64,000 nt of DNA from Cellulomonas sp. Y8 (GTDB lineage: Bacteria > Actinomycetota > Actinomycetes > Actinomycetales > Cellulomonadaceae): assembly GCF_008033115.1 (NCBI RefSeq), contig NZ_CP041203.1, positions 1,674,001 through 1,738,000 on the forward strand. The letters run 5' to 3'. Position 1 is the first letter of the stretch, and each line of letters opens with the position of its first letter. The position numbers and the translations under genes were made by a program. Below are positions 36,622 to 62,960 of the stretch, piece after piece. The notes under the pieces are model-generated. The model was not told the DNA's origin and ran no database searches. It worked only from the letters and a program-made list of their open reading frames with translations.

Positions 36622-36638
36622 ATGAAGGTTCGCTGAAG
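36622..36638 (+). promoter_or_regulatory. ATGAAG-N5-CTGAAG box 1 (NlpC/P60-ccsB operon)
   Basis: ATGAAG then CTGAAG at an 11-bp period, upstream of the riboswitch and of a TCTAGCGT -10-like hexamer. Confidence 0.65.
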
Positions 36639-36699
36639 AGTGCGATGGCGAGCACCATCGCTGGAGACGCTCCGTCTAGCGTCGCTCGGGACCGGGCGC

Positions 36700-36870
36700 C
36701 GTCCGGGGCCGCGCGGACGCCGAGTCCTGCCACCGCCCGGCTTGTCGATTGCGTGGCAGGAGCGGGGGGACCCAGTCTCCACGGGCACTCAACCGCCCTC
36801 GGCGGCAAGTGAGTCCCGGGTCGGTCGAAGAGCTTCGTTCGAACTGACAACGCACCTCGCAGGCGACAGG
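36700..36870 (+). ncRNA. c-di-AMP riboswitch (ydaO-yuaA type)
   Basis: The 5' region of the NlpC/P60 gene contains the landmark blocks of the actinobacterial ydaO class in order: GCCGAGTCCTGCC (36719), GGCAGGAGCGGGGGGACCCA (36755), a GGG...AAGTGAGTC joint, and the closing CTGACAACGCACCTCGCAGG (36844) just before the ribosome site. In actinobacteria this class sits ahead of cell-wall hydrolases, as here. Exact ends are approximate. Confidence 0.75.
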
Positions 36871-36877
36871 AGCCCAC

Positions 36878-37666
36878 ATGCCTGCTCATCTGCGCGTCAG
36901 CTCGCGCCATCGCACTCCCGGCCCCGCCCGGACGCCGTTGACCGACGCCAGTGCGAATGCGCGGGCGACCGCAACGCTCGCCGGCCGCCGAGTCGGCACG
37001 GTTGTCGCAACTTCGGGGGTAGCGGTCTCGCTCACAGCGGTTCCGGCGTCCGCTGCACAACCGGCTGAGAGCAGCGCCGGCATTCTCGATCTCAACGCGC
37101 TGGCCGGGGCCCGGGCGTTGGCCTCCGCCGCCCCGAGTGCAGTCGCGCCCGTCACCGCGACCTGGTCGTTCGACGTCCCTGGCGCGACCGCGGTGCTGCC
37201 ACCGCTTCCCCCGCCGGTGGTCGAGGAAGCGGCTGCCCGACCCGATGGGCCGGCGGCCCGCTCCTCGCGACGAACCGAGCCCACCGAACCGCAGGAGCTG
37301 ACCGCGGTCGGCGCACCAGTGCCCCAGTCTGCGAACGGCAGCGCCGTCGTCGCGGTCGCTTCGGGTCTGGTCGGTGTGCCCTATGTGTACGGCGGCACGA
37401 CCCCGAGCGGGTTCGACTGCTCCGGCTTTACCTCGCACGTGTACGCGCAGGTCGGCATCACGATCCCACGCACGTCGACGGCCCAGCGAGACGCAGGCAC
37501 GGTCGTCCCGCGCGACCAGGCGCAGCCGGGCGACCTGATCTGGTCGCCCGGGCACATCGCGATCTACGCCGGTGACAACCTGCAGGTCGACGCGCCCGTA
37601 CCCGGCAAGACGGTCCAGATCCGGGAGATCTGGCAGTCCGCCCCGTTGTTCGTCCGGATCGGCTGA
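36878..37666 (+). CDS. Secreted NlpC/P60 cell-wall endopeptidase
   Basis: 262 residues. A long basic N-terminus and a hydrophobic stretch (GTVVATSGVAVSLTAVPASAA) give export; a Pro/Ala-rich linker leads to the NlpC/P60 domain with Cys in GFDCSGF (near residue 188), His in PGHIAIYAG and a final polar segment. It would cut peptidoglycan stem peptides. The mRNA begins with a c-di-AMP riboswitch and the next gene (ccsB) is 5 nt downstream. Confidence 0.85.
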   Translation: MPAHLRVSSRHRTPGPARTPLTDASANARATATLAGRRVGTVVATSGVAVSLTAVPASAAQPAESSAGILDLNALAGARALASAAPSAVAPVTATWSFDVPGATAVLPPLPPPVVEEAAARPDGPAARSSRRTEPTEPQELTAVGAPVPQSANGSAVVAVASGLVGVPYVYGGTTPSGFDCSGFTSHVYAQVGITIPRTSTAQRDAGTVVPRDQAQPGDLIWSPGHIAIYAGDNLQVDAPVPGKTVQIREIWQSAPLFVRIG

Positions 37667-37671
37667 TCGGC

Positions 37672-40005: not shown

Positions 40006-40092
40006 GAGGCCTCCATGCCGGGACTGTCGGGGGGTCTCCGCCAGCATCGCCGCTGCTCGCGCGGGAAGAGCGCGAGAACAGGTCCGTCGTCG

Positions 40093-40109
40093 ATGAAGGT
40101 CCGCTGAAG
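40093..40109 (-). promoter_or_regulatory. ATGAAG-N5-CTGAAG box 2 (methyltransferase gene)
   Basis: Same 11-bp period repeat, between the methyltransferase start and the ccdA-like gene end. Confidence 0.6.
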
Positions 40110-41011: not shown

Positions 41012-41143
41012 GCGGCGGCGACCCGCGCCACCCCGGCGCGGCCCAGCTGCGCGTCCCCGGTCGCGGGGCCTCGCGGCGCGCGGGCGGCGCGGACCCCGTT
41101 GTGGATCACGACCACCGCGGCGACCTCGTGGACGAGCACGACG
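41008..41143 (-). pseudogene. 3' remnant of a P1B-type ATPase gene
   Basis: Reads VVLVHEVAAVVVIHNGVRAAR and a basic tail, matching the C-terminus of the P1B ATPase at 52827 (VVLVHEVAEVFVIANGVRAG). Only about 44 codons remain. The stop overlaps the ccdA start (ATGA), so the ancestor was an ATPase-ccdA operon. The rest is gone; VKOR sits where it used to be. Confidence 0.7.
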
Positions 41144-41164
41144 CCCGAGGGCGATGGGTCCCGG

Positions 41165-41801
41165 TCACGGCAGCAGGGTGGACCAGTAGAACCAGAACCG
41201 TTGCAGCGCGAGCAGCGCGATCGTCAGGGTACCACGCGGTGAGGATCGTCGAGCGGTAGTCGACGGCCACCGCGAGGGCGGCTCGGGCAGGCTGGGGCAG
41301 CGAGAGCTGCCAGCGCTGCAGGTTGCGCAGCGTCACCGACAGGAACAACGGGATCATCACCGCCCACACCACCAGGCAGTACGGACAGAGCGCGCCGATG
41401 CGGTAGAGGCTCTGGAATGCGAGCCAGTGCACGAACACCACCCCGAAGGTGACCCCGGCCTGCAGCGCGAGCCAGTACCACTCGCCGAACCTGGCGCCAC
41501 TGAGCATGCCCGCGGCTGCGGTGAGGACCACCGTGAAGCCCACGATGCCGATCAGCGGGTTGGGGAAGCCGAACACCGACGCCTGCTCCGAGGTCATCAC
41601 CGAGGTGCAGGACAGGATCGGGTTGAGCGTGCAGCTCGGGACGTGAGTGGGGTCCTCCAGGACCGCGAACCGCTCGAGGAGCAGGGCGAACGCCGCAGCG
41701 AGCCCGACCGCGGCGAGGGTCGCCAGGGCGACGGCGCGGCGCCGCTCGGCTGTCCGGGGCTCGAACAGGACCGTATCGGGGGTGGCGGCGACGGCGGTCA
41801 C
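41165..41801 (-). pseudogene. Vitamin K epoxide reductase (VKOR) family protein, late frameshift
   Basis: GTG 41801 overlaps the DsbA-like stop. Four helices; Cys pairs CTLNPILSC and ALCPYC are the VKOR loop and CxxC sites. The frame holds to AWY near 41230; then an extra C (TACCCTG for TACCTG) shifts it, and LTIALLALQRFWFYWSTLLP to the stop at 41165 is in the next frame. VKOR oxidises DsbA-type proteins in actinobacteria, and here it is translationally coupled to one. All catalytic cysteines precede the break. Confidence 0.75.
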
Positions 41802-42505
41802 GCGCCGCCCGACTCGTCGAGAGCGCGGTCCAGGGCGTCGGTCAGGTCCGAGACGCTGCTGAGCTCCAGTCGCTGCCCGTCGAGGAAGAACGTCGGCGTG
41901 CCCTGCACGCCGAGCGCCTGCCCGTCGTCGAGGTCCTGCTGCACGCGCTCCTGGGTCGCCGGGTCCGCGACCGCGTCGTCGTACGCGGCCAGGTCCAGGC
42001 CCAGTTCCTCGGCGAACGAACGGAACAGGTCGGCCTGTGAGGTCTGCTGCTCGCCCCACTCGGCCTGGGTCTGGAACATCCGGTGGTACATGTCCTCGAC
42101 CTGGCCCTGCTGCGCCGCCGCCTCCACCGCCAGCGCGGCGTTCATCGCGTTGGCGTGACTCGCGATCGGGAAGTAGCGGATGACGTAGTTGATCTGACCC
42201 GCGTACTGCTCGCGGATCTGCTCCACCACGGGGTAGAAGGCGCCGCAGGCCTCGCACTCGAAGTCCATGAACTCGACGAGCGTCGGCGCGCCCGGGCCGG
42301 CGTCGTCGAGGACGTAGGAGTCAGCGCGGGTCGCGGGCAGCGCCCCGGCCTCCTGCCGAGGCGCCGGCCCCCGGGGGCCGGTGGCGAGGGCATAGATCAG
42401 CAGGCCGGTGATCGCCACGACGACCAGCGCGCCGGCAATCAGGGCGCTGCGCACGCGCGGACTGAGCGGCCGCGGGGGGTTCGCGGCGGCAGCGTCGGTC
42501 TTCAT
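41798..42505 (-). CDS. DsbA/thioredoxin-fold oxidase with membrane anchor
   Basis: 235 residues from ATG 42505 after GCAGGAGAGACGCC. One N-terminal helix (ALIAGALVVVAITGLLIYALATG), then a DsbA-like domain with active-site CEAC at residues 84-87 and cis-Pro GVQGTPTFFLDG. It would introduce disulfides into exported proteins, reoxidised by the coupled VKOR gene. Divergent from the ArsR-CDF operon, with a TGAAG box between them. Confidence 0.85.
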   Translation of the reverse strand: MKTDAAAANPPRPLSPRVRSALIAGALVVVAITGLLIYALATGPRGPAPRQEAGALPATRADSYVLDDAGPGAPTLVEFMDFECEACGAFYPVVEQIREQYAGQINYVIRYFPIASHANAMNAALAVEAAAQQGQVEDMYHRMFQTQAEWGEQQTSQADLFRSFAEELGLDLAAYDDAVADPATQERVQQDLDDGQALGVQGTPTFFLDGQRLELSSVSDLTDALDRALDESGGA

Positions 42506-42638
42506 GGCGTCTCTCCTGCGGGTCGTCAGGTGCGGCCGCGCGGCAGAGCACGGCTTTGCGGTGGTGAGGAAGAGGGTGGAGCGCTGCCCTCCGGTCGCAC
42601 GGTAGGCGACCCCAGGCGGCACATCGGCCCTCGGAGGT

Positions 42639-42653
42639 TGAGATTCGATGAAG
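42639..42653. promoter_or_regulatory. TGAG/TGAAG box 3 (dsbA-vkor / arsR-cdf divergent promoter)
   Basis: TGAG-N6-TGAAG with a 10-bp period, between the DsbA-like and ArsR genes. Weaker than boxes 1, 2, 4 and 5. Confidence 0.45.
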
Positions 42654-42710
42654 GCTCGACCTGAGGTGTGGCACACGACGCACACCACCCCCTACCATCG
42701 CTTTGTGACG

Positions 42711-43085
42711 ATGACATCCCCCATGGTCGATATTGAGAACGAAGTCCGTTCCGCTGATGACGCCGTGCTCACGGCCCCGACCGCCGCGCTGTTCCGGGCG
42801 CTCGGCGAGCCGGCCCGGCTGACGATGCTGCGCCACCTGTTCACCGGGGAGCACTCGGTGCGCGAGCTGACCGAGCACCTCGGGCTCGCGCAGTCCACGG
42901 TGAGCGTGCATCTGGCCTGCCTGCGGGACTGTGGGCTGGTCACCGTGCGGCAGCGCGGCCGGTCATCGATCTACGCGATCGCCGACCCGGGCCGCCTGGC
43001 GACGCTCGTCGGCGCGGCGGAGGACCTGCTGCGCGGCGGGTCGAGCCCGGACTCGTGCGCGCACCTCGCGGGGGACCTGCGGTGA
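42711..43085 (+). CDS. ArsR/SmtB-family metal-sensing repressor
   Basis: 124 residues from ATG 42711. Winged helix LGLAQSTVSVHLACLRDCG carries Cys70 and Cys74 in the CmtR-like alpha-R position, with a further SCAHLAG near the C-terminus. It probably senses Zn, Cd or Pb and represses the coupled CDF exporter (GTGA overlap). An in-frame GTG lies at 42705. Confidence 0.8.
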   Translation: MTSPMVDIENEVRSADDAVLTAPTAALFRALGEPARLTMLRHLFTGEHSVRELTEHLGLAQSTVSVHLACLRDCGLVTVRQRGRSSIYAIADPGRLATLVGAAEDLLRGGSSPDSCAHLAGDLR

Positions 43086-44002
43086 GCCACGGGCACGACC
43101 ACGCGCCCGTGGGCGGTGGCGACCACCGGCGCCGGCTCGCGATCGCGTTCGGCCTGACCTCGACGGTCCTGGTCGCCCAGGCCGTGGGTGCCCTGATCAC
43201 CGGTAGCCTCGCACTGCTGGTCGACACCGCGCACATGCTCACCGACGCCGCGGGCCTGGCGATGGCGCTGGTCGCCGCGCACCTCTCCCTCAAGCCGGCG
43301 ACGTCCCGGCGGACCTGGGGCTACCGGCGGGCCGAGGTGCTGGGCGCGCTGGCGCAGTCCGCGGTGCTGCTGGCCGTCGGCGGGTACGTGCTTGTCGAGG
43401 GGATCCGGCGGCTGTTCTCCCCGCCTGAGGTGCCGTCGACCGAGCTCATCGTGTTCGGCATCATCGGCCTGGTCGCGAACGTGGCGGCCATCGCGGTCTT
43501 GGCCAGCGGGCGCAAGGCGAACTTCAACCTGCGCGCCGCGTTCCTGGAGGTGCTCAACGACGCGCTCGGCTCGGTCGGCGTCATCGTCGCGGCGGTCGTC
43601 ATCGCGACCACCGGCTGGCAGCAGGCCGACGCCATCGCTGGCCTCCTCATCGGCGCGCTCATCGTCCCGCGCGCCATCAAGCTGCTCCGCGAGACCAGCG
43701 CCGTGCTGCTCGAGTCCACTCCTGCCGGGCTCGACCTCGACGCGGTGCGCGACCACCTGCTGGGCGTCGAGCACGTGCGCGCGGTGCACGACCTGCACGC
43801 GACCCTGGTCGCCACCGGCCTGCCGGTCATCACGGCGCACGTCACGGTCGACGACGAGTGCTTCTCCGACGGGCACACCGCCCGCATCCTCGACCAGCTC
43901 CAGGACTGCCTGACCTCGCACTTCCCGATCTCGGTCGAGCACTCCACGTTCCAGATCGAACCCGCGTCGCACCGCACGCACGAGCACCTCGGGCACGCAT
44001 GA
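43082..44002 (+). CDS. czcD: Cation diffusion facilitator metal exporter (CzcD-like)
   Basis: 306 residues from a coupled GTG. N-terminal HGHDHAPVGGGDH is a metal-gathering tail; DTAHMLTDAAGL in helix II and NDALGSVGVIVAA in helix V hold the paired Asp/His residues of the transport site; a C-terminal cytoplasmic domain follows (HVRAVHDLHATLVATGLPVITAHVTVDD). It would export Zn, Cd or Co. Regulated by the upstream ArsR protein. Confidence 0.88.
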   Translation: MSHGHDHAPVGGGDHRRRLAIAFGLTSTVLVAQAVGALITGSLALLVDTAHMLTDAAGLAMALVAAHLSLKPATSRRTWGYRRAEVLGALAQSAVLLAVGGYVLVEGIRRLFSPPEVPSTELIVFGIIGLVANVAAIAVLASGRKANFNLRAAFLEVLNDALGSVGVIVAAVVIATTGWQQADAIAGLLIGALIVPRAIKLLRETSAVLLESTPAGLDLDAVRDHLLGVEHVRAVHDLHATLVATGLPVITAHVTVDDECFSDGHTARILDQLQDCLTSHFPISVEHSTFQIEPASHRTHEHLGHA

Positions 44003-44502
44003 GCCGCCGCGTCGGTACGGCGATGCCGCCCGTGGCGTTCGCCGCGGTCGCGGGCGCTGTGCAGCTGGCGGTCTCCCGGGGGAGGCGGCCCACCCCCGGC
44101 TCGCTCGCGGCCGCCGCGCTTCCTGCCGCCACCGCGGCGTGGCTGCTCGGCGACGCGCTCGTCCGATTCCGTCGCGCCCGCACGACCGTCGACCCCCTCG
44201 CCCCGGCGGGGGCAAGCACGCTCGTGACCACCGGGGCCAATCGGGTCAGCCGCAACCCGATGTACCTGGGGATGGCCGCGGCACTGCTCGCGCACGCGGT
44301 GGCCCTGCGGTCGCCCGCCGCGCTCGCCCCGGTGGCCGGGTTCGTCGCCGTGCTCACGGCCGGGCAGATCACTGCGGAGGAAGACGCGCTTGACGAGCGG
44401 TTCGGGGAGTCCTACGCGCGGTACTGCGCCGAGGTCCCCCGATGGGCCGACCTGCGCTCAGTGCGGGTGGTCGCCGCTACCGGTTCCATGAAGATCCGAT
44501 GA
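43999..44502 (+). CDS. Isoprenylcysteine methyltransferase-like membrane protein
   Basis: 167 residues, ATGA overlap with the CDF gene. Membrane helices and the motif SRNPMYLGMAAALLAHAVALRS ... EEDALDERFGESYARYCAEVPRW are the ICMT/PEMT-like signature (methyltransferase of the inner membrane). Substrate unknown; such genes often follow heavy-metal exporters. Its last codons overlap TGAAG box 4. Confidence 0.75.
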   Translation: MSRRVGTAMPPVAFAAVAGAVQLAVSRGRRPTPGSLAAAALPAATAAWLLGDALVRFRRARTTVDPLAPAGASTLVTTGANRVSRNPMYLGMAAALLAHAVALRSPAALAPVAGFVAVLTAGQITAEEDALDERFGESYARYCAEVPRWADLRSVRVVAATGSMKIR

Positions 44503-44504
44503 AG
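44488..44504 (+). promoter_or_regulatory. ATGAAG-N5-ATGAAG box 4 (response regulator gene)
   Basis: A perfect direct repeat, ATGAAG at 44488 and 44499, about 60 nt before the response regulator start; suggests autoregulation. Confidence 0.7.
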
Positions 44505-44565: not shown

Positions 44566-45267
44566 ATGCCCACTGACACCGAACGCGTGCGCGTGCTGGT
44601 CGTCGAGGACGAGAGCGTGCTCGCCGCCGTCATCGGCGACTACCTACGTGCCGACGGCTACGACGTGGCCGTGGTCGGCGACGGCGCCCACGCGCTGGAA
44701 ACCGCCCGCTCGATCGCGCCGCACGTCGTGGTGCTCGACCTCGGCCTGCCCGGAGTTGACGGCATCGAGGTGTGCCGGCGTCTGCGGGAGTTCTCCGACG
44801 CCTACGTGGTGATGCTCACCGCACGCGCGGACGAGACGGAGGTGCTGCAGGGCCTGCGTTCCGGTGCGGACGACTACATGACCAAGCCGTTCCGGCCGCG
44901 CGAGCTGCTCGCCCGGGTCCGCACGCTGCTGCGACGCGCTCGCACACCCGGCCCGCTGGCACCGCCGACGCGTGAGATCGGCGGCCTGCGCGTGGACCTG
45001 CGCAGCCGCGAGGTCACACTCGAAGGGGCGGCGGTGGACCTGACGCCGACCGAGTTCGACCTGCTCGCCTGCCTGATCGACAACGCCGGGACCGCCATGT
45101 CGCGGCGCGCGCTGATCGAGGCGCTGCGGGGGGAGAACTGGTTCGGCGACGAGAGCCTGATCGACGTGCACGTGCTGCACCTGCGGCGCAAGCTCGGCGA
45201 CGACGCCGCGACTCAGCGGTTCGTCCGCACAGTGCGCGGCATCGGCTACCAGCTGGGCGACGGATGA
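44566..45267 (+). CDS. OmpR-family response regulator
   Basis: 233 residues. Receiver domain with VVEDE acidic pocket, phosphoacceptor Asp58 (VVVLDLGLPG) and Lys in DDYMTKPF; C-terminal winged helix (VDLTPTEFDLLACLIDNAGTAMSRRALIEAL ... VLHLRRKLGDD). Coupled to the histidine kinase gene by ATGA. Candidate binder of the TGAAG boxes, one of which lies just upstream. Confidence 0.88.
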   Translation: MPTDTERVRVLVVEDESVLAAVIGDYLRADGYDVAVVGDGAHALETARSIAPHVVVLDLGLPGVDGIEVCRRLREFSDAYVVMLTARADETEVLQGLRSGADDYMTKPFRPRELLARVRTLLRRARTPGPLAPPTREIGGLRVDLRSREVTLEGAAVDLTPTEFDLLACLIDNAGTAMSRRALIEALRGENWFGDESLIDVHVLHLRRKLGDDAATQRFVRTVRGIGYQLGDG

Positions 45268-46404
45268 GCCGCGCACCGTGGCGGGGCTGGGGGGTCGCCC
45301 TCCGGCTGAGCGTCGCGCTCTCGGCGGTCACGCTGGTCACCGTCGCGACCGCCGGGCTGGTCGCCTCGCTGATCGGGCCCGGGATCTTCCACGAGAACCT
45401 GTTGCAGCACAACGAGGACGCGTCCGACGACGCGACCGAGCACGCCGAAGCGGCGTTCGGCACGGCCGGCAGCGTCTCGCTGGGCGCGGCCCTGCTGCTC
45501 GCGCTGCTCGTGTCCTCGGTGTTGAGCATCTGGATCGCGGGGCGAGTGACCCGGTCGCTGCAACCGATCGTCGCGGCCGCCGGGAGCGTGGCGCGTGGGG
45601 TGTATGACCGCCGGGTCCCCGTCCCTGGGTTGGGCGCCGAGTTCGACGACGTCGCGACCGCGATGAACGCGATGTCCGAGCGCCCTCGAGCACGTCGACG
45701 GCACCCGCCGCCGGCTGCTGGCAGACCTGGCCCACGAGATGCGCACGCCGCTGGCCACCCTGACCGTGTATGTCGACTCGATCGAGGACGGGCTTCGGGA
45801 CCCTGACGCCGCGACGCTGCAGGTGCTGCGCGACCAGGTGAACCGGCTGAGCCGGCTCGCGGAGGACGTCTCGGCGGTGTCACTCGCCGAGGAGCGGCGC
45901 CTGCCGCTGCGCCTCGCGGACGCCGCCCCGGAGGACCTGGTGCGCGCCGCGGCCGCTGCGGCCAACCCTGCCTATGCCGCCAAGGGCGTGTACCTCCAGG
46001 TCGACACCGCGGCCCGCGCCCCGGCAGTCGTCGTGGACCGCGACCGCATCGGGCAGGTCCTGGCCAACCTTCTGGACAACGCGCTGCGGCACAGCGACCC
46101 CGGAGCCGCCGTCGTCGTGCGGGTCCGCGCCGAGCGGGACGCCGTCGCCATCGGCGTGCACGACACGGGCGACGGCATCGCCCCGGAACACCTGTCCCAC
46201 GTGTTCGACCGGTTCTACCGGGCCGACGCGGCCCGCGACCGGGACCACGGTGGCTCAGGGATCGGGCTGACGGTGAGCAGGGCGTTCGCGGAGGCACACG
46301 ACGGATCGTTGGAAGCCGCCAGCCCCGGCGCCGGGCAGGGCGCCACCTTCACGCTCCGGCTACCCGCACGGCGGGCACGAGCCGGCGCAGACAGCGCCAG
46401 ATGA
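45264..46404 (+). pseudogene. Sensor histidine kinase, frameshifted
   Basis: Two membrane helices flank a short extracellular loop (HENLLQHNEDASDDATEHAEAAFG), then HAMP. The frame breaks at 45683-45685 where CGCCCTCGAG has one C too many; the H-box (ADLAHEMRTPLATL) and ATPase domain (NLLDNALRHS, DTGDGIAPE, GGSGIGL) continue in the next frame to 46404. Restored length is about 379 residues. An error in a C run is the simplest cause. Partner of the upstream response regulator. Confidence 0.8.
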
Positions 46405-46417
46405 AGGAACGCTGAAG
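46401..46417 (+). promoter_or_regulatory. ATGAAG-N5-CTGAAG box 5 (M23 peptidase gene)
   Basis: Exact 11-bp period, about 35 nt before a CTACCGT -10-like sequence and 80 nt before the ATG. Confidence 0.65.
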
Positions 46418-46496: not shown

Positions 46497-47846
46497 ATGC
46501 GTCGACCCGTTGCCCGCCCCCCGCGTCTGTGGCGCCGCGCAACCGCGACCCTGGTCGCCGTGGCCGTCCTGGTGGCTCTCGCCCCCGCAGCGGGCTCAGC
46601 TGACGACCTCGACGACCGGCGACGTGCAGCCCAGCAACGCGCTGACGCCGCCCAGCGCCGCGCCGAGGACCTGCAGGCGTCGATCGAGGGCCTGTCCGCC
46701 GACCTCGCGCAGGCCGTCAGCGATCTCGCAGCGACCGAGGCCCGGCTGCCCGCCGCCCAGCAGGAGCTCAGGACCGCACAGGACGAACTGGCCGGCGCCG
46801 AACGGCGCGCCGAGCTCGTGCAGGCCCGCCTCGTCGACGCCACGGACCAGCGCGACAGCATCAGCGCCGACCTGACCGAGAACGCCGCCCGCGACCAAGA
46901 CGTCCGGGACAGCATCGGCCAACTCGCGCGCCAGGCGTACCAGGGCGGGGGTGACATGTCCGCCATCGCGGTGGTCCTCGACGCCCAGAGCGTCGATGAC
47001 TTCAACCGCCGCTACCAGGCCGCCGCGACCGCGCAGCGCGCCCAGCGCGAGCTCGTCCAGGAGCTTGCCGACCTCGCCGGCGACGCCCGGAACGCACAGA
47101 CCCGTCTGACCGCCGTCACCGATCGGATCGGCGAGCTGAAGGCCGAGGCCGAGGCCGAGGTGGTGCGCGCCGACCAGGCTCGCGCCGCCGCAGCGACGCG
47201 TGAGCAGGAGATCGAGGACCTGATCGCCGACCAGCGCTCAACCCAGCAGCGCCTAGCCGGCATGAAGAACCAGGCCGAAGCCGAGCGCGCCCAGGTCGAG
47301 AGCGACCGCGCCGCGGTCGAGCAAGAGCTCGCCGGCATCATCGCCGAGCAGCAGCGCGCCGCCGCAGCCAAGCCGGCGCCCGCGGCGCCCGGCGCACAGC
47401 AACCGGCCGCGCCCCCGCCGCCCTCCAACGGCGCGGGTGCGATCTTCGCCAACCCGACCTCGATCAACCCGATGTACGTCACGTCCAGCTACGGCATGCG
47501 GCTGCACCCGATCCTTGGGTACACGCGCCTGCACGCCGGGATCGACCTACGCACCTACTGCAACACCCCGCTGTACGCCCCGCGCGACGCGACCGTGCAG
47601 TGGGCGCAGCGGCGCGGGACGTTCGGCAATCAGGTGATGCTGAACTACGGCACCGTGAACGGTCAGCCGATGATGAGCAGCTCGAACCACCTCACGAGCT
47701 TTGCCGTGTCGACCGGTCAGCAGGTGCGCCGGGGCGACCTCATCGGTTACTCCGGCAACACGGGCCTGTCTGGTGCCTGCCATCTGCACTTCGAGGTGTA
47801 CGTGAACGGCTCCACCGTCGACCCCGCACCGCTGCTGGGGCGGTGA
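46497..47846 (+). CDS. Secreted M23 peptidase with coiled coil (EnvC/NlpD-like)
   Basis: 449 residues. Signal peptide (TATLVAVAVLVALAPAAGSA), then about 270 residues of Ala/Gln/Glu/Arg coiled coil, a Pro/Ala linker and a C-terminal LytM domain with His-Asp in RLHAGIDLRTYC and HxH in CHLHFEVYVNG. All zinc ligands are present, so it may cleave peptidoglycan or regulate an amidase. The TlpA-like gene starts at its stop (GTGA). Confidence 0.88.
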   Translation: MRRPVARPPRLWRRATATLVAVAVLVALAPAAGSADDLDDRRRAAQQRADAAQRRAEDLQASIEGLSADLAQAVSDLAATEARLPAAQQELRTAQDELAGAERRAELVQARLVDATDQRDSISADLTENAARDQDVRDSIGQLARQAYQGGGDMSAIAVVLDAQSVDDFNRRYQAAATAQRAQRELVQELADLAGDARNAQTRLTAVTDRIGELKAEAEAEVVRADQARAAAATREQEIEDLIADQRSTQQRLAGMKNQAEAERAQVESDRAAVEQELAGIIAEQQRAAAAKPAPAAPGAQQPAAPPPPSNGAGAIFANPTSINPMYVTSSYGMRLHPILGYTRLHAGIDLRTYCNTPLYAPRDATVQWAQRRGTFGNQVMLNYGTVNGQPMMSSSNHLTSFAVSTGQQVRRGDLIGYSGNTGLSGACHLHFEVYVNGSTVDPAPLLGR

Positions 47847-50176: not shown

Positions 50177-50182
50177 TCCCAG

Positions 50183-50199
50183 CTTAGTCGGATCTTCAT
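50183..50199 (+). promoter_or_regulatory. TGAAG box 6 (fliL-like gene)
   Basis: Reverse orientation: CTTCAT at 50194 (perfect) and CTTAGT at 50183 (degenerate), 11-bp period. Confidence 0.5.
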
Positions 50200-50284: not shown

Positions 50285-50791
50285 ATGCCCGAACAGCGAA
50301 TCATCGGTTCCAGCAGCAGGATCGGTGGCCAGCGACCATCATCGTCGGCGAGCACCGACTCCCAGCCCACGCCCGCGCCCGTACCGACGCCGGCCAAGCG
50401 CAGCAGACGCACCCTCGTGCTCGTCGCGATCCTCGTCGCCGTGGCGGGCGTGGCCTGGTACCTGCTTCGCGGGAACGCTGCATCGGAAGCGGAACCGGCG
50501 GAAGTCGAGCTCGGCACCGTGCAGGCGGTCGAACCGATCAGCATCAACCTCGCGAACGGCCGCTACCTGCGTCTGGGCCTCGGCCTGCAGCTCACCGCCG
50601 AGGTGGCCGAGGACGTCGACACCGTCAAGGCGCTGGATCTCGCGATCGCGTTGTTCTCCCAGCGGTCGATCGACGAGCTGAACACCCCCGAGGGCAGGGA
50701 CGCACTCAAGAACCAGCTCGCGACCCAGCTGACCGAGGTCTACGAGGGAGAGGTCGTCGACGTGTACTTCAGCAACTTCGTCTACCAGTGA
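50285..50791 (+). CDS. fliL: FliL-family protein (orphan)
   Basis: 168 residues. An Ser/Pro-rich cytoplasmic N-terminus, one membrane helix (RTLVLVAILVAVAGVAWYLL), then EVELGTVQAVEPISINLANGRYLRLGLGLQLTAEV and RDALKNQLATQLTEVYEGEVVDVYFSNFVYQ, the FliL core that in flagella forms rings around stators. No other flagellar gene is present, so its role here may be a general membrane scaffold. Flanked by TGAAG boxes. Confidence 0.8.
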   Translation: MPEQRIIGSSSRIGGQRPSSSASTDSQPTPAPVPTPAKRSRRTLVLVAILVAVAGVAWYLLRGNAASEAEPAEVELGTVQAVEPISINLANGRYLRLGLGLQLTAEVAEDVDTVKALDLAIALFSQRSIDELNTPEGRDALKNQLATQLTEVYEGEVVDVYFSNFVYQ

Positions 50792-50815: not shown

Positions 50816-50831
50816 CTTCATCGAACCTCAA
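50816..50831 (+). promoter_or_regulatory. TGAAG box 7 (lnt)
   Basis: CTTCAT and CTCAA with a 10-bp spacing, about 135 nt before the lnt start; weaker than boxes 1, 2, 4 and 5. Confidence 0.4.
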
Positions 50832-50966
50832 CCACCGCCGGCGGTCCGTGAGAGCACCCAGCGCTTACGGTGAGAACACCCCGCGGCGGTAGCGCTCGAT
50901 GGATCCGAGCCCCCCGCCGCCGCGGGGCCCATCCGTCGTTTTCCCGCCCCAGGAGCCGTGCCGGAC

Positions 50967-55439: not shown

Positions 55440-57623
55440 TCAGCGCTGCCGAAGGTCAAGTCGGCGTAACAGCTGCGCGTTGAGCGCGACGACGATCGTG
55501 GAGACCGACATGAGGATCGCGCCGACGGACATCGGCATCACGAACCCGACGGGCGCGAGGACACCTGCTGCGAGCGGGACGGCGATGAGGTTGTAGCCGG
55601 CGGCCCACCACAGGTTCTGCTTCATCTTGCGGTAGCTCGCGGAAGATAGGTCGATGACTGACACCACGGATCGCGGGTCGTCGCTGGCGAGGATCACCCC
55701 GGCCGAGGCGATCGCGACGTCGGTGCCTGCGCCGATCGCGATGCCGACGTCAGCCTGCGCGAGCGCGGGTGCGTCGTTGACGCCGTCGCCGACCATCGCG
55801 ACCGTGCGGCCCTCGCGCTGCAGCTCGGAGACCTTGGCGGACTTGTCCTCGGGTCGCACGCCGGCGAAGACCCGGTCGATGCCGATCTCGGTCGCCACGG
55901 TGCGTGCGACGGCTTCGGCGTCGCCGGTGATCATGACGACGTCGGCGCCGCGGTCGTGGAGCTGACGGATCGCTGCGCGGGACTCCTCGCGGATCTCGTC
56001 GGCGAGCTTCAGGGCGCCGGCGACCTGCCCGTCGACCAGGACGTGCAGGATGATCGCTCCCTGAGCGCGCCACTGCTCGACGCCGTCGAGCTCGGTGACG
56101 TCACGCTCGTGCAGCAGGTTCGGTCCGCCGACCTCGACGGTGCGGCCTGCGACCGACGCCCGGACGCCGACAGCTGGCGAGGACGTGAAGTCGCTCGCCG
56201 CGGGCACAAGCAGCTGCGCTGCGGCGGTGACGATCGCGCGGGCGAGCGGGTGCTCGCTGTCGGCCTCGGCCGCGGCGGCCATCGCCAGGACGTCGTCGCG
56301 CGCGAAGCCGTTCGCGGGGAGGACCTCGGTGACGGTGGGCTGGCCCTTGGTCAGGGTGCCGGTCTTGTCGAACACGACGGTGGAGACCGTGCGCATGCTC
56401 TCCAGGGCCAGGCGGTCCTTGACCAGGACGCCGCCGCGGGCGGCGCGCTCGGTGGCGATCGACACCACCAGCGGGATGGCCAGGCCGAGGGCGTGGGGGC
56501 AGGCGATCACCAGGACGGTGATGGTGCGGATCACGGCTGCGTCGGGCATCCCGAGGAGCGACCAGACGAACGCGGTGATCGCGGCGGCGCCGAGCGCGAA
56601 CCAGAACAGCAGGGCTGCCGCGCTGTCAGCCAGGCGCTGGGCGCGCGAGGAGGAGTTCTGCGCCTCGAGCACGAGGCGCTGGATGCCAGCGAGGGCGGTG
56701 TCCTCCCCGACGGCGGTCACGCGCAGCCGCAGCGCGGAGTCCGTCGCGACGGTGCCGGCCACGACGTGGTCCCCGGTGGTGCGACGCACGGTGCGTGACT
56801 CGCCGGTGACCATGGACTCGTCCATCTCGGCGGCGCCGTCGATGACCGCGCCGTCGGCGGGGACGCGAGCACCGGGACGCACGAGCACGACGTCGTCCAC
56901 GGTGAGCTCCGACGGGGCGACCCGCACGACGTCGTCTCCCTCGACCCGCTCGGCTTCGTCGGGCAGGAGTGCGGCCAGGGAGTCCAGGGCGGACGTGGTC
57001 TGCGCGAGGGAACGCATCTCGATCCAGTGGCCGAGCAGCATGATCACGATGAGCAGCGCGAGCTCCCACCAGAAGTCGAGCTCGTGCGCGACGACCCCGA
57101 GGGTCGAGAGCCAGGACGCGACGAAGGCGACGGTGATCGCCAGGGCGATGAGCAGCATCATCCCGGGACGCCGGGACCTCAGCTCTTCGGCCGCTCCGGT
57201 CAGGAAGGGCGCGCCTCCCCAGGCGAACATCACGGTGCCGAGCACCGGCGAGATCCACGACAGCCACGCGAGGTCGGGCAGCTCGTAGCCCAGCACCATC
57301 GCGAACATGCCGCTGGTCGCCACTACCGGGACCGCGAGCACGAGCATCACCCAGAACAGCCGCCGGAACTTCTCCACGTGACCCGCGTGACCGCCGTGAC
57401 CGCCATGTCCGCCGTGGCCTTCGTGAGCGGAGTGCGGGTCGTGACCGTGGTCGTCCTGGTGGACGCGGGTCACGGTCATCGCGTGCCCGTGGTGCCCCTC
57501 GTGCGGCAGGTCGGCTGCGTCCTCGCGCATCGGCTGTGCCGCTTGCGGGTGCGTGGCTTGGTTGTCGTGGCGGATGTGGTCCGGCTCGCCGGGGTGGTGC
57601 TGGGTGTGGTCGTCGCGGCTCAT
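55440..57623 (-). CDS. copB: CopB-type (CPH, P1B-3) copper-exporting ATPase
   Basis: 727 residues from ATG 57623 after GAGAGG. The first 110 residues are His/Asp/Gly-rich (HEGHHGHA, HEGHGGHGGHGGHAGH), as in CopB. The transmembrane motif is IACPHALGLAIP, defining P1B-3; actuator TGES (MVTGES), DKTGT, HP motif (SEHPLA) and GDGVNDAPAL are all intact. It would export copper or silver. A CsoR-like operator lies 60 nt upstream. Confidence 0.92.
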   Translation of the reverse strand: MSRDDHTQHHPGEPDHIRHDNQATHPQAAQPMREDAADLPHEGHHGHAMTVTRVHQDDHGHDPHSAHEGHGGHGGHGGHAGHVEKFRRLFWVMLVLAVPVVATSGMFAMVLGYELPDLAWLSWISPVLGTVMFAWGGAPFLTGAAEELRSRRPGMMLLIALAITVAFVASWLSTLGVVAHELDFWWELALLIVIMLLGHWIEMRSLAQTTSALDSLAALLPDEAERVEGDDVVRVAPSELTVDDVVLVRPGARVPADGAVIDGAAEMDESMVTGESRTVRRTTGDHVVAGTVATDSALRLRVTAVGEDTALAGIQRLVLEAQNSSSRAQRLADSAAALLFWFALGAAAITAFVWSLLGMPDAAVIRTITVLVIACPHALGLAIPLVVSIATERAARGGVLVKDRLALESMRTVSTVVFDKTGTLTKGQPTVTEVLPANGFARDDVLAMAAAAEADSEHPLARAIVTAAAQLLVPAASDFTSSPAVGVRASVAGRTVEVGGPNLLHERDVTELDGVEQWRAQGAIILHVLVDGQVAGALKLADEIREESRAAIRQLHDRGADVVMITGDAEAVARTVATEIGIDRVFAGVRPEDKSAKVSELQREGRTVAMVGDGVNDAPALAQADVGIAIGAGTDVAIASAGVILASDDPRSVVSVIDLSSASYRKMKQNLWWAAGYNLIAVPLAAGVLAPVGFVMPMSVGAILMSVSTIVVALNAQLLRRLDLRQR

Positions 57624-57683
57624 GTCGGTGGCCTCTCTCGTCGACTGGTCCACGTGGTGATGGCGCTCGACCCCTGCAACCGC

Positions 57684-57700
57684 ATACCCCCCGGGGGTAT
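57684..57700 (-). promoter_or_regulatory. CsoR-like operator upstream of copB
   Basis: ATACCCCC-C-GGGGGTAT, a perfect palindrome of the CsoR type, with a second half-site GAGGGGTAT at 57707-57715. Confidence 0.7.
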
Positions 57701-57724
57701 TCCACCGAGGGGTATGCCGGGACG

Positions 57725-58000
57725 TCAGGAGATGCGTTCGTGGTCGCCTTGTGGCCGGCTGGTGCCGTCGAGCGGCACCTCGTCGGTGACCGCCGGGCGT
57801 GTTCCGGCGTGCGGGTGGGGCGGAGTGCCGTGCCCGCTGCGCCCGCGCCCCATGAGCAGCATCATCGCGACCATCCCGAGTGGGCACGCCAGGAGCAAGG
57901 CGTATCGCAGGGCGCCGGACAGGTCGACGCCAAGTGCGAGCAGCAGCGCGAGGACAACGGCTGCGGCGATGGCCATGTGCTTGAGGTGGTGCTTGATCAC
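57725..58000 (-). CDS. DUF2933-family small membrane protein
   Basis: 91 residues from GTG 58000: KHHLKHMAIAAAVVLALLLALG, then LRYALLLACPLGMVAMMLLMGRG, two helices with a CPLGM motif typical of DUF2933 proteins that accompany copper clusters. His-rich C-terminal tail (HGTPPHPHAG). Probably copper-related. In front of copB, same strand. Confidence 0.7.
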   Translation of the reverse strand: MIKHHLKHMAIAAAVVLALLLALGVDLSGALRYALLLACPLGMVAMMLLMGRGRSGHGTPPHPHAGTRPAVTDEVPLDGTSRPQGDHERIS

Positions 58001-58082: not shown

Positions 58083-58099
58083 GTGAAGCGTCGATGAAA
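58083..58099 (-). promoter_or_regulatory. TGAAG box 8 (DUF2933-copB)
   Basis: GTGAAG-N5-ATGAAA, 11-bp period, about 85 nt before the DUF2933 start. Confidence 0.5.
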
Positions 58100-59060: not shown

Positions 59061-59687
59061 TCAGGCGGGCAGGTTGGCCTGGACCTGCTTGAGCAGGTCG
59101 CCGGGGGCCAGCCACATGGAGGGGTAGTTGCCGGACCAGCGGCGGGTGCCGTCGGCGTCGACGAGGACGAAGCTGTGGCCGGGGAGTCCTGCGTGCATGC
59201 CGGTGCCGAGCGTCCCGTACTGCTCGGAGACGGTGCCGTCGTCGAGCAGGAAGGGGGTCGTGACGCCGTAGGTGGCCATGTCGGCGCTGATCTGCTCGGC
59301 GGTGTTCATGACGATCGGCAGGACGGTGATGCCGGCGTCGACGAAGGCGGGGTCCTTCTCGATCTCACCCATCTGCTGCAGGCAGGATCCGCAGCCGGCG
59401 CCCTCGTTGAAGTACAGGACGACCGGGGTGCCGCGGAAGTCCGACAGGCTCACGGTGGAGCCGTCGGTGCTCTTGAGCGTGAAGTCGGGAGCGGGTCCGG
59501 CCTCGGTGGAGGTGACCTCGCGCGAGGACAGCAACGCGGCGGTGACCACGGCGATCACGAGGACGACCAGTGCGGCAGAGGCGGTGGTGATGACGATCCT
59601 GCGTCGCCGGTCGTGCCGCTGCTGGTCGTGCCGGACCTGGGCGAGGGCGGCGGCGCGCTGCTTGCGGGCGGCCGTGGCGGAGGTCAT
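59061..59687 (-). CDS. Membrane-anchored AhpC/TSA-type redoxin
   Basis: 208 residues from ATG 59687 (ATGA overlap with ccdA). A Gln/Arg-rich cytoplasmic tail and one helix precede a redoxin domain: PAPDFTLKSTDGSTVSLSDFRGTPVVLYFNEGAGCGSCLQQMGE, with CGSC as active site, and GHSFVLVDADG. It would reduce thiols or peroxides outside the membrane with electrons from the coupled CcdA. Confidence 0.82.
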   Translation of the reverse strand: MTSATAARKQRAAALAQVRHDQQRHDRRRRIVITTASAALVVLVIAVVTAALLSSREVTSTEAGPAPDFTLKSTDGSTVSLSDFRGTPVVLYFNEGAGCGSCLQQMGEIEKDPAFVDAGITVLPIVMNTAEQISADMATYGVTTPFLLDDGTVSEQYGTLGTGMHAGLPGHSFVLVDADGTRRWSGNYPSMWLAPGDLLKQVQANLPA

Positions 59688-60637
59688 CGGTGTGCTCCTT
59701 CGGTGTCGTGCTCGTGGCAGCTCGCCTCGCCCGTGGGTCGCTGCTCGGGAGTGGTCTCGGGCCGGGTGGTGCGTGCGCGCCGGCGCTCGGACAAGGTGCC
59801 CCACACGAACAGTGCGGCCAGGGCGACCAGCGCCAGTCCGAGCACGGGCTCGGGGACCGGGGAGGTCCAGTCCTCGAACCGGGAGAACACGGAGGTCAGG
59901 GTGCGGCCGATCGCGGCCTGCGCCTGGGTTCCTCGGGTCATGTCCGGGCTGCCGGCGAGCAGGATCACGGCGACACCCATGACCGTGAACCCGGCTGCGA
60001 CGGCGATGTTCAAGGTGCTCGTGGTGAGCGTGCGGCCGGCCAGGCGCAGCCGGACGGTCCTGGGGCTCAGCCAGGTCCGGTCCCGTAGCCGGGCCTTGTC
60101 CCAGATCAGTGCCATCACGAACAGCGGGAAGACCATCCCGAAGACGTACGCCAGGCCCAGCAGCAGCCCACCGGCTGGCGACCCCGACAGTGCGGACAGC
60201 GTCATCACGCCGGCGAGCACGGGTGCGCAGCAGCTGGAGGCGATCCCGGAGAAGACGCCCAGGGCGAAGAAGCTCGCGGTGTCCCCGCCGTGGGTGTCGG
60301 GGGCGCGCAGCGCGCTCGGCAGCGACCACATGCGCCCTGACAGCGCGAGCGCGGCGAGCGCGAGCATCAGGGCGCCGCCGGCGTAGTACAGCGGCGCGTG
60401 GTACCGGGCGATCGCGCCGGCGACCATGCTGACCCCGAGGGTGATGGGCAGCAGGACGGTCGCCAGGCCGGCGGCGAACACGAACGTCAGGGGCAGCAGC
60501 CGCCACCGCCGGTTCTTGACGGCGCCGGCGAGGTAGCTCGGCGCGAGGAATACGATGCAGCACGGCGCGAACAGCGCGACGCCGCCGGCGAAGAACGCCG
60601 CCAGGACGCTGCCGGTCGTCAGCAGCTCCGAACCCAT
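59684..60637 (-). CDS. ccdA: CcdA/DsbD-type thiol-disulfide transporter (intact)
   Basis: 317 residues. Helices carry the paired cysteines FAPCCIVFLAPSYLAG and IASSCCAPVLAGVMTL, with double Cys at both sites. Eight or nine membrane segments, more than minimal CcdA, and a His/Cys-rich tail (EASCHEHD). It passes electrons to the coupled redoxin. The second CcdA-like gene of the window (40195) is frameshifted. Confidence 0.85.
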   Translation of the reverse strand: MGSELLTTGSVLAAFFAGGVALFAPCCIVFLAPSYLAGAVKNRRWRLLPLTFVFAAGLATVLLPITLGVSMVAGAIARYHAPLYYAGGALMLALAALALSGRMWSLPSALRAPDTHGGDTASFFALGVFSGIASSCCAPVLAGVMTLSALSGSPAGGLLLGLAYVFGMVFPLFVMALIWDKARLRDRTWLSPRTVRLRLAGRTLTTSTLNIAVAAGFTVMGVAVILLAGSPDMTRGTQAQAAIGRTLTSVFSRFEDWTSPVPEPVLGLALVALAALFVWGTLSERRRARTTRPETTPEQRPTGEASCHEHDTEGAHR

Positions 60638-60638
60638 C

Positions 60639-60953
60639 TCAGCGCACCGCGGTCAGCGGGACGTCGGCGCCGCGCTGGCGAAGCAGGTCGAGAAGGCGCC
60701 CGGTGCGCAGTCGCCCGGAGCTGACGAACTCCCCGTCGAGCAGGACCAGTGGGCTCATCGCCGCACGGTGCTCGGCGACCAGCTGCTGCCCCTCGTCGGA
60801 CCGTGCCTCGAGAACCCGCAAGCGCAGCGGTGTGCGCTCGCGCAGCCGGTCGAGGGTGTCGAGTGCGGCGTCGCAGAGGTGGCATGCGGGTGAGCGCACC
60901 ACCGTGACGACCGGGTCGGTCAGGCTCTTCAACTGGCCGGGCGTGCTGGGCAT
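60639..60953 (-). CDS. Glutaredoxin-like (DUF836-type) protein
   Basis: 104 residues from ATG 60953. TVVRSPACHLCDAALDTLDRLRE has a CHLC redox motif; RLRVLEARSDEGQQLVAEHRAAMSPLVLLDGEFVSSG is the remaining thioredoxin fold. Its stop (60639) lies 1 nt before the ccdA start. It may supply cytoplasmic electrons to CcdA. A TGAAG box lies about 50 nt upstream. Confidence 0.75.
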   Translation of the reverse strand: MPSTPGQLKSLTDPVVTVVRSPACHLCDAALDTLDRLRERTPLRLRVLEARSDEGQQLVAEHRAAMSPLVLLDGEFVSSGRLRTGRLLDLLRQRGADVPLTAVR

Positions 60954-60998: not shown

Positions 60999-61015
60999 AT
61001 CAAGTTTCGATGAAG
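60999..61015 (-). promoter_or_regulatory. TGAAG box 9 (glutaredoxin-ccdA-redoxin operon)
   Basis: ATCAAG-N5-ATGAAG, 11-bp period. Confidence 0.55.
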
Positions 61016-61026
61016 CCTGCCGTCGG

Positions 61027-62163
61027 TCAGGCGCGAGTAGCGGTGGTGGTCGCGTCCGGCAGTCGGACGGAGAACCGCGAGCCGCGACCGAGGCCTTCGC
61101 TGGCTGCGTCGATCGTTCCGCCATGGGCCTGGACGAGCGCCCGGCAGATCGCCAGGCCGACGCCCGATCCACCGTGGCGGCGGTCGCGGGCGCTGTCGAC
61201 GCGGTAGAACCGCTCGAACAGGTGCGGCAGGTGCTCGGCGGCGATGCCCTCGCCGGTGTCGGTGACGGTCAGTTCGATCGTGGTGGCGTCGCGGCGACCG
61301 GCAGAGAGGATGATGCGTCCGCCGGCGGGCGTGTGGCGGATCGCGTTCACCGCGAGGTTGTCCAGCACCTGCGCCATGCGGACGCGGTCGACCCGCACGA
61401 CCCCGGCGTCGGCGCCGTTCTGGGTGGTGAGGGTGACGCCGGCGGTCTCGGCTCGCTCGCGTGCGACGAGCGCGGTGGCCTCGACGAGCTCGCCGGCGGG
61501 GACGTCGGCGAGGTGAAGGTCGAGCTCTCCGCTCTCGGCGCGGGTGACCGCGGCGAGGTCGCTGGCGAGTCGGGTCAGGCGCTGGGCCTGGTCGTTCAGA
61601 ACGGTGATCGTCTCGGTGTCCAGGACGCGCACGCCGTCCTCAAGCGCTTCGACGTAGGCGGTGAGGGTCGCCGCCGGGGTTCGCAGCTCGTGGGCGACGT
61701 CGGTCAGCAGCCGCTCACGCAGTCGTTCGTCGGCTTCGAGGTGGGCGGCCATGGTGTTGAACGACCCAGCAAGCTGGTCGAACTCGACACCGATGCCCGG
61801 CAGCGGGACCCGGGCGTCGAACCGGCCGGAGCCGACCTGCGCGGCGGCGCGGGCCATCTGGGAGACTGAGCGCCCCACACGGCGCGTCAGGACCACGCTG
61901 ACCGTCAGGGCGGTGACGCCCGCGACGACCATCGCCAGGCCGAGGGCGATGGTGCTCGCCGACTGGAACGCCTCTTCGATGTGCAGGTCGGCGAGCTCGT
62001 GGTCGGCGATGTTGGCCTGCACCAGGTGCTCGTGGAACAAGGCCGGCCCCACGAGCGTCGCCACCAGCCAGGCCGTGGCCGCGGCGGCCACGAGCACCAG
62101 GACGATCGAGACCAGCAGCCGCCGCCCGATGCTGCCGGGGCCGATCGCCTCGCGCGTCCTCAT
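61027..62163 (-). CDS. Sensor histidine kinase (intact)
   Basis: 378 residues from ATG 62163, ATGA overlap with the response regulator. Two helices flank a sensor loop (HEHLVQANIADHELADLHIEEAFQ, His/Glu-rich), then HAMP, H-box LTDVAHELRTPAATL and an ATPase domain (NLAVNAIRHTPAGG, DTGEGIAAE, GGSGVGLAI). It closely resembles the frameshifted kinase at 45264 in layout and loop, so the two systems are paralogues. Likely signal: copper or envelope stress (inferred from context). Confidence 0.88.
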   Translation of the reverse strand: MRTREAIGPGSIGRRLLVSIVLVLVAAAATAWLVATLVGPALFHEHLVQANIADHELADLHIEEAFQSASTIALGLAMVVAGVTALTVSVVLTRRVGRSVSQMARAAAQVGSGRFDARVPLPGIGVEFDQLAGSFNTMAAHLEADERLRERLLTDVAHELRTPAATLTAYVEALEDGVRVLDTETITVLNDQAQRLTRLASDLAAVTRAESGELDLHLADVPAGELVEATALVARERAETAGVTLTTQNGADAGVVRVDRVRMAQVLDNLAVNAIRHTPAGGRIILSAGRRDATTIELTVTDTGEGIAAEHLPHLFERFYRVDSARDRRHGGSGVGLAICRALVQAHGGTIDAASEGLGRGSRFSVRLPDATTTATRA

Positions 62164-62882
62164 CCGGGTCCCATCCGGTACCCCACCCCGCGGACGGTGC
62201 GCACGAACCGTTGCTGCTGAGCGGTGTCCTTGAGCTTGCGGCGCACGTGCAGCACGTGGACGTCGACCAGGTGCTCGTCGCCCACCCAGCCCTCGCCCCA
62301 GACGGCGCGGATCAGCGCGGGCCGGGAGAACACGACGCCGGGTCGCGAGGCCAGCGCGGCCAGCACGTCGAACTCCAAGCGGGTCAGGACGACCGGCTCG
62401 CCGTCGACCTCGACCTCGCGCGCGTCCAGATCCAGGACGAGGCCACCGACGGTGACCCTGCGGGTCTCGACCGGCGCGGAGCCCTGGTCTGCAGGAGCGG
62501 CTCGGCGCGGGCGACGCAGCATGACGCGGATCCGGGCCATCAGCTCCCGCGGGCTGAACGGCTTGGTCATGTAGTCGTCCGCCCCCACGGACAGCCCGAT
62601 CAAGGTGTCGACCTCGTCGCTGCGCGCGGTGAGCATGACGACGTAGCAATCGGAGAACGTGCGCAGCTGCCGGCAGATCTCCACGCCGTCGACCCCCGGC
62701 AGCCCGAGGTCGAGGACCACCACGTCCGGGTCGACCTCACGCAGCAGGGCGACCGCGGCGCTGCCGTCGTGGCACAAGGACACCTCGAAGCCCTCCCGCT
62801 CAAGGTAACCGCCGACGACCGAGGCGAGCGCCTGCTCGTCGTCGATCACGACGGCGCGCATCGTGGCCTCGGGCGGTGTCAT
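62160..62882 (-). CDS. OmpR-family response regulator
   Basis: 240 residues from ATG 62882 (an internal ATG at 62861 is possible). Receiver with Asp58 (VVVLDLGLPG) and DDYMTKPF; winged helix (VVLTRLEFDVLAALASRPGVVFSRPALIRAVWGEGW ... VLHVRRKLKD). A paralogue of the regulator at 44566. A TGAAG box lies about 60 bp upstream, between it and a divergent gene. Confidence 0.88.
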   Translation of the reverse strand: MTPPEATMRAVVIDDEQALASVVGGYLEREGFEVSLCHDGSAAVALLREVDPDVVVLDLGLPGVDGVEICRQLRTFSDCYVVMLTARSDEVDTLIGLSVGADDYMTKPFSPRELMARIRVMLRRPRRAAPADQGSAPVETRRVTVGGLVLDLDAREVEVDGEPVVLTRLEFDVLAALASRPGVVFSRPALIRAVWGEGWVGDEHLVDVHVLHVRRKLKDTAQQQRFVRTVRGVGYRMGPG

Positions 62883-62943
62883 GCGGCCATTGTGGCCAGG
62901 AGCCTGCACCTCGACGAGCACTGCGCGGATCGTGTGGGAACTT

Positions 62944-62960
62944 CCTGATCGAAACTTCAT
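62944..62960. promoter_or_regulatory. TGAAG box 10 (response regulator / ferredoxin-like divergent promoter)
   Basis: CCTGAT and CTTCAT, 11-bp period. Toward the plus gene, TATCGT at 62994 lies 7 nt before GTG 63006, a probable leaderless start. Confidence 0.55.

Follow-up and report, generated by a model that had tools for sequence, protein, structure and literature searches.

What controls a run of metal and envelope genes in Cellulomonas sp. Y8? The window analysed here is a stretch of 64,000 nucleotides (NZ_CP041203.1, positions 1,674,001 to 1,738,000). It carries ten short direct repeats, each made of two ATGAAG-like halves with an 11-bp period, together with genes for two response regulators of the OmpR family. 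These regulators, RR1 (44566..45267, forward strand) and the CopR-like RR2 (reverse strand, open reading frame (ORF) called at 62160-62861, with a predicted leaderless start in frame at 62882), are 58% identical. Our analysis indicates that the repeats, hereafter called boxes, very probably serve a two-component system of the CopRS type as its operators, within a copper island that looks mobile.

Distribution of the repeat and of its probable regulator

All ten repeats listed by the first-pass annotation are present in the window. The literal form in which it had described them, ATGAAG-N5-ATGAAG, occurs once (44488); the nine other sites are variants that depart from the consensus at one to three positions, and the one listed at 42639 lies in better register at 42637. 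A search with ATGAAGNTTCGATGAAG (ATGAAG-NTTCG-ATGAAG, the 11-bp period fixed, up to three mismatches) returned 11 matches in the window, the ten listed sites and one at 27467, while 100 dinucleotide shuffles averaged 0.08 and never gave more than 1. Because ATGAAGNTTCGATGAAG was drawn from sites in the window this count is partly circular; the confinement of the motif to a single island is not. Across the genome, a single contig of 4,475,991 bases, there were 12 matches, every one of them in the 36.7 kb of C1:1701467-1738199, and the reversed pattern found none. Scaled from the window shuffles, five to six chance matches might be expected outside the island, and none was observed. The 16-bp core with up to two mismatches gave ten matches, all in C1:1710623-1738198, against one for its reversed control. 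By these mismatch-tolerant pattern searches, the motif is not as frequent elsewhere in the replicon: nothing matched beyond the one stretch. A further box lies 183 bp past the window end (L016:183); there (L016:183-1940) it is directed at a short frame and another gene for an M23 peptidase.

Within the limits of the gene calls, which came from a crude, home-made caller, all sites do lie between genes or at a gene end, as claimed. Three sites overlap frames. The PEMT frame (43999-44502) is overlapped at its 3' end by 44488, the second frame of a kinase gene, HK1, at its end by 46401, and a long ArsR ORF by 42637, which nevertheless lies upstream of the predicted ArsR start at 42705.

We then asked which regulator the box follows, using 85 response regulator genes that were listed in a search with RR2 of 80 genomes of the genus and chosen blind to the motif. 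A box within 500 bp upstream, with at most three mismatches, preceded 45 of the 53 genes at 64% or more identity to RR2, 7 of the 14 at 56-63% and none of the 18 at 55% or less. The reversed pattern was found upstream of 0 of the 85, and every true box was oriented toward its gene. In 60 genomes of the genus the regulator and the motif were both present in 28 and both absent in 26; three had only the regulator and three only the motif (p=2.6e-10, which is not a true probability since the species are related). Two of the three genomes with the regulator only (G008 and G026) have weaker boxes.

A tree of 109 rows was built from the 85 genus regulators, 17 from a wider search (at least 588 stretches, of which 80 were kept and these 17 placed) and seven of eight plasmid loci. 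The latter came from 8 of 50 records that were examined, and the Cellulomonas one was omitted as a duplicate of G048. All 60 box-bearing regulators fall in one clade of 84 rows (support 99/96), and the box label requires 12 changes on the tree compared with 35.9 in shuffles, near copies included. RR1 and RR2 lie on separate branches. A recognition helix of about DEHLVDVHVLHVRxKL, or a close variant, is common to the box-bearing regulators, RR1 and RR2 included, and is frequent in the box-less rows of the clade too; the helices of RR1 and RR2 are near-identical and differ at a few positions. Outside the genus, boxes precede the regulator in Actinotalea, Nocardioides, Kineosporia and metagenome-assembled genomes of Nanopelagicales and Actinomycetota, and on plasmids of Rhodococcus jostii RHA1, Mycolicibacterium poriferae and Gordonia pseudamarae. 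In two Mycolicibacterium loci (L053, L054) a box stands before a DUF305 gene and not within 500 bp upstream of the regulator.

Promoter geometry and predicted targets

The boxes stand at fixed distances from sequences that resemble a -10 element. In 52 box-bearing regions upstream of RR2-type genes, reduced through 46 to 42 by keeping only relatives of at least 64% identity and taking duplicates out, the distance from the box start to a SAnnnTG-like hexamer is 43-44 (13 promoters), 55-56 (8) or 64-66 (19) bases; 40 of the 42 have such a hexamer and 2 do not. The steps between these positions are about one helical turn. In most cases the start codon lies some 12 bases downstream of the hexamer's first base, which predicts leaderless mRNAs. 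Near 126 other boxes, TANNNT was concentrated at 55-56 (15) and 67 (5) in the direction of the box and at 49-50 (12) when read the other way; any other position had 0-2. The phased positions are 43-44, 55-56 and 64-67 in the same direction and 49-50 and 61 in the opposite one; measured from the box centre, the two directions are about half a helical turn apart.

When 176 sites were reduced by flank identity to 124 non-redundant ones, whose consensus is AT(G/C)AAG-NTTCG-ATGAAG and whose flanks beyond the box are little conserved, 102 had NAnnnT at a phased position. Shifting the positions by 3 to 9 bases lowered this number to 11-22, and it climbed again near shifts of 11; for TANNNT the numbers were 23 in phase and 0-2 when shifted. 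A phased hexamer was also present in 118 of 132 links between a box and a gene within 400 bp, where we estimate a chance expectation of about a quarter to a third; this count allowed 14 phased positions (8 same, 6 opposite), more than the 124-site test. The orientation is specific to the gene (same to opposite: RR2 34:1, CopM 0:17, glutaredoxin 0:12, RR1 7:0). Such phasing fits an activator that, placed on one side of the helix, would contact RNA polymerase. Together with the co-occurrence of the box with one OmpR-family clade and the near-identical recognition helices, it supports the proposal that this is an OmpR/PhoB-type box.

In the Y8 genome a hexamer occupies a phased position at 11 of 12 sites, the exception being 50183, which is one base off, and the predicted starts of RR1 (44566), RR2 (62882), ArsR (42705), the glutaredoxin (60953) and ORF 63006 fall 11-12 bases downstream of the first hexamer base. 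Box control is predicted for about ten promoters. Box 1 (36622..36638, +, ATGAAGGTTCGCTGAAG) has a predicted -10 TAGCGT at 36677 (+) in front of an NlpC/P60 ORF (36878-37666) and ccsB (37672-38673). Box 2 (40093..40109, +, ATGAAGGTCCGCTGAAG) points through a predicted GATGCT at 40048 (-) to a methyltransferase-like ORF (39046-40047, -), whose Pfam match is weak and below the cut-off. Box 3 (42637..42653, +, GTTGAGATTCGATGAAG) appears to be bidirectional: a predicted TACCAT at 42693 (+) leads to arsR, with a leaderless GTG at 42705, and then to the CDF transporter and PEMT genes (42705..44502, +), while a predicted TACCGT at 42604 (-) leads to dsbA (41798-42505) and vkor (41106-41801; the unit 41106..42505, -). 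Box 4 (44488..44504, +, ATGAAGATCCGATGAAG) precedes RR1 with a weak -10-like GAAGGT at 44555 and the start codon at 44566, and box 5 (46401..46417, +, ATGAAGGAACGCTGAAG), with a predicted TACCGT at 46456 (+), faces an M23 peptidase gene with a coiled coil (46497..47846, +).

Box 6 (50183..50199, -, ATGAAGATCCGACTAAG) is weak; its off-phase hexamer is GACGAT at 50231 (+), before a fliL-like ORF (50285-50791). Box 7 (50816..50832, -, GTTGAGGTTCGATGAAG) with a predicted TACGGT at 50866 (+) faces lnt, for apolipoprotein N-acyltransferase (50958..52523, +); the G037 genome has lnt (L149:5295-6856) in two frames near its 3' end, and here it is one ORF. Box 8 (58083..58099, +, GTGAAGCGTCGATGAAA), also weak, has GAGGAT at 58049 (-) before DUF2933 (57725-58000) and a copper P-type ATPase gene (55440..57887, -) that scores over the TIGR01511 cut-off. 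Box 9 (60999..61015, +, ATCAAGTTTCGATGAAG) with GACCGT at 60965 (-) precedes the leaderless glutaredoxin-like start at 60953 of a predicted operon (59061..60953, -) that continues with ccdA-like and AhpC/TSA genes; the DsbD_TM match of the ccdA-like gene is below cut-off and the glutaredoxin-like match is weak. Box 10 (62944..62960, -, ATGAAGTTTCGATCAGG) also appears to act in both directions, through CACAAT at 62894 (-) on RR2, with its predicted leaderless ATG at 62882, and through TATCGT at 62994 (+) on ORF 63006-63416, with a predicted leaderless GTG. This ORF has no Pfam match and is 97% identical in G037; in three other loci (L128, L146, L151) the gene divergent from RR2 is lgt, for prolipoprotein diacylglyceryl transferase. 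The eleventh match (27467..27483, -, ATGAACATCCGATGAAC), with AACACT at 27516 (+), is doubtful as a box and lies in a segment that does not align with the G037 copy.

The boxes thus precede both regulators and every unit named by the first-pass annotation, and its reading of them as one regulon linking cell wall, lipoprotein, thiol and metal functions is supported by this analysis. In the loci examined, which were partly picked by motif, a box lies within 400 bp of RR2 in 25 genomes or records, of CopM in 16, glutaredoxin in 10, CopB and NlpC in 8 each, RR1 and M23 in 6 each, DUF2933, ArsR, methyltransferase and DsbA in 5 each, Lnt in 4, FliL in 2 and PEMT in 1. The M23, DsbA and ArsR links occur only in the six genomes that have the RR1 island, and the Lnt link in four of those. 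All fetched loci together gave 141 motif matches and no reversed ones; loci L128-L167 were picked by motif hits, so that this count is biased, and the survey of 85 regulators is the motif-blind test.

Sensors, mobility and rival explanations

The Pfam and NCBIfam matches describe an island of metal, thiol and envelope genes. They are NlpC/P60, cytochrome c assembly, DsbD_2, VKOR, DsbA, ArsR, CDF, PEMT, RR1, HK1, M23, AhpC/TSA (TlpA-like), CtaG, CopC, FliL, Lnt, a piece of a heavy-metal P-type ATPase, the copper P-type ATPase, DUF2933, DUF305, AhpC/TSA, the second kinase HK2 and RR2. Copper genes adjoin the system, as both DUF305 (CopM family) and the copper ATPase score over their NCBIfam cut-offs. 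The heavy-metal P-type ATPase (52827-54633) is matched here as two pieces that lie in different frames, but G037 (L149) has it undivided.

The left half of the window encodes a TrwC relaxase with an AAA domain and an ArdC-type anti-restriction gene (19598-23662 and 29252-30154). On plasmid p110066 of Cellulomonas sp. C5510 (110,066 bases; G048) an RR2 relative (79186-79887) is found together with relaxase, MobC and ParB genes. On these grounds the copper island looks mobile, as a conjugative or integrated plasmid-like element. Its metal part has a very similar copy in G037 (92.8-98.5% in the longest aligned stretches).

HK2 (61027..62163, -) is CopS-like. Its outside loop, LFHEHLVQANIADHELADLHIEEAFQSAS (LFHEHL...HIEEAFQSAS), resembles the CopS loop of Corynebacterium glutamicum, LFHDHMLMTGREDPSLELFHAEQAYRDAN, given in an excerpt of PMC3353115. 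HK1 (45264..46404, +), with HAMP, HisKA and HATPase domains, has the loop IFHENLLQHNEDASDDATEHAEAAF. It is split here into two frames (45264-45806 and 45739-46404), which may reflect a mutation or an assembly error; its pieces share one frame in six copies from relatives (G017, G048, two in G037, G001, G057). The short loop with HxHM/L and HAExAF/Y is present in HK2, whereas HK1 has HxN and falls outside this pattern. Relatives of HK1 retain FHxN; the FHxN and downstream LLQH of HK1-type kinases, in place of the CopS-like FHxH of HK2, suggest that they read a different ligand. Of 54 kinase rows, which include HK1, FRxH-type and unrelated kinases, 35 match the pattern GP..HxH; one or more of these matches is an out-of-frame artefact.

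Copper damages disulfides, the cell wall and lipoproteins. We propose that HK2 senses copper outside the membrane, and that phosphorylated RR2, probably also its paralogue RR1, would bind the 11-bp direct repeat head-to-tail. The bound regulator would activate weak promoters that have their -10 on one constant helical face relative to the box; the resulting mRNAs would often be leaderless. Genes for metal efflux, periplasmic thiol and disulfide chemistry, cytochrome assembly, peptidoglycan hydrolysis and lipoprotein acylation would be switched on jointly, and both regulators would be autoregulated. If true, the sensing of copper in actinobacteria would be coupled with how disulfides form, how peptidoglycan is turned over and how lipoproteins are acylated, and a copper role is proposed for the fliL-like, PEMT and DUF2933 genes.

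Several observations weigh against this proposal. No box with up to three mismatches was found before 8 of the 53 close and 7 of the 14 intermediate relatives of RR2, and 24 rows of the 84-row clade are box-less. The plasmid regulators of Corynebacterium halotolerans, Streptomyces mirabilis, Kocuria rosea and Cryobacterium arcticum have no box within 500 bp, even though a Corynebacterium protein, CopR of C. glutamicum, serves as the model. Conversely, the motif occurs without the regulator in G039, G040 and G053, the last 61% complete. Three boxes (44488, 50183 and 58083) have weak hexamers. According to an excerpt of PMC3140484, a predicted extra site in C. glutamicum (cg0414) was unbound in gel shifts, so consensus matches can fail. 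The likeness to CopRS is one of box and kinase loop, and binding, copper response and expression are predictions from sequence.

One alternative is that the repeats have no regulatory role, being products of chance or remnants of repeat copies. The pattern came from the window itself, and only one of the ten listed sites shows the literal repeat exactly, but the shuffle expectation of 0.08, the empty reversed-pattern controls and the phased -10 elements amid little-conserved flanks leave this hardly credible, and we rejected it on the shuffle, reversed-pattern and phase-shift controls. Another chromosomal OmpR-family regulator (e.g. MtrA or a PhoP/RegX3-like protein) could instead bind the boxes, RR1 and RR2 being mere neighbours. 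The DNA-binding domain is matched 15 times in the genome, and according to an excerpt of PMC3353115 this family usually has direct repeats. However, the box tracks the clade of RR1 and RR2 and is absent upstream of all 18 more distant regulators, 26 of the 29 genomes without this clade are also without the motif, and the MtrA box published in the same excerpt differs. The presumed MtrA group, moreover, has another recognition helix. We consider a neighbouring regulator of this kind highly improbable.

A more serious alternative accepts the operators and divides them: RR1 and RR2 would each use their own subset of boxes, the shared consensus reflecting only common ancestry. The separate branches, the few differences in the helices and the different kinase loops (FHxH in HK2, FHxN in HK1) agree with such a split, while the core and the -10 phasing are common to the boxes beside RR1 and those beside RR2; on balance we think it unlikely. 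Speculative, and also less likely than not, is an extension of the CopRS-type reading, in which the island is a travelling, self-contained copper-envelope stress response with two paralogous CopRS systems that differ in their sensor loops, perhaps for different metals, one operator and a strict two-sided promoter rule. Under such a rule, genes captured by the island could join the response; they would include cell-wall hydrolases and lipoprotein acylation genes (lnt here, lgt beside RR2 in relatives). The rule itself, of box, helical phase and leaderless start, is testable in many Cellulomonas genomes and in some relatives and plasmids outside the genus.

Comparison with known systems

The best NCBIfam match of both regulators is the MtrA equivalog NF040689, with scores of 220.5 and 235.9 that are below the cut-off of 300. 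The actinobacterial MtrAB system resembles the present one in its OmpR-family regulator, its link to cell-wall genes and its direct-repeat box. The MtrA box, (A/G)TAACAATttn(A/G)TAACAAT in the excerpt of PMC3353115, differs from the box here, and with the scores this led us to reject an identity of RR1 or RR2 with MtrA. The CusR, CzcR and SilR proteins are likewise OmpR-family response regulators for copper or heavy metals. The CusR box is palindromic. An identity with this type was rejected on the TIGR01387 scores (158.5 and 146.4, cut-off 279.2).

Among the titles listed from the open-licence literature we recognised no report of a Cellulomonas or envelope-wide CopR regulon, from which absence from print does not follow. 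The closest known system is CopRS of C. glutamicum. Its CopR (Cg3285) binds TGAAGATTTnnTGAAGATTT, at -78 to -59 from copR, which the excerpt of PMC3140484 reports as the sole site in the genome. As far as the excerpted sources describe it, that system shares with ours an OmpR-family regulator, a TGAAG direct repeat with an 11-bp period, a linked copper ATPase and, in HK2, the short kinase loop FHxH(M/L)...HxExAF/Y. The boxes here begin 78 bases before the start of RR1 and the predicted start of RR2, a likeness of distance. A direct-repeat box on TGAAGAT with the same period is found in both; the half-site ends in TTC(G) here and in TTT in TGAAGATTTnnTGAAGATTT, a difference at the third position. 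Based on the likeness of box and HK2 loop, we call the system CopRS-type. It differs in that C. glutamicum has one reported site and two divergent operons, whereas 10 to 12 sites occur here; a single operator per genome, probably not a defining trait, does not hold with 12 matches. Additional here are the two paralogous systems, the envelope and disulfide genes and the phased promoter rule in two directions.

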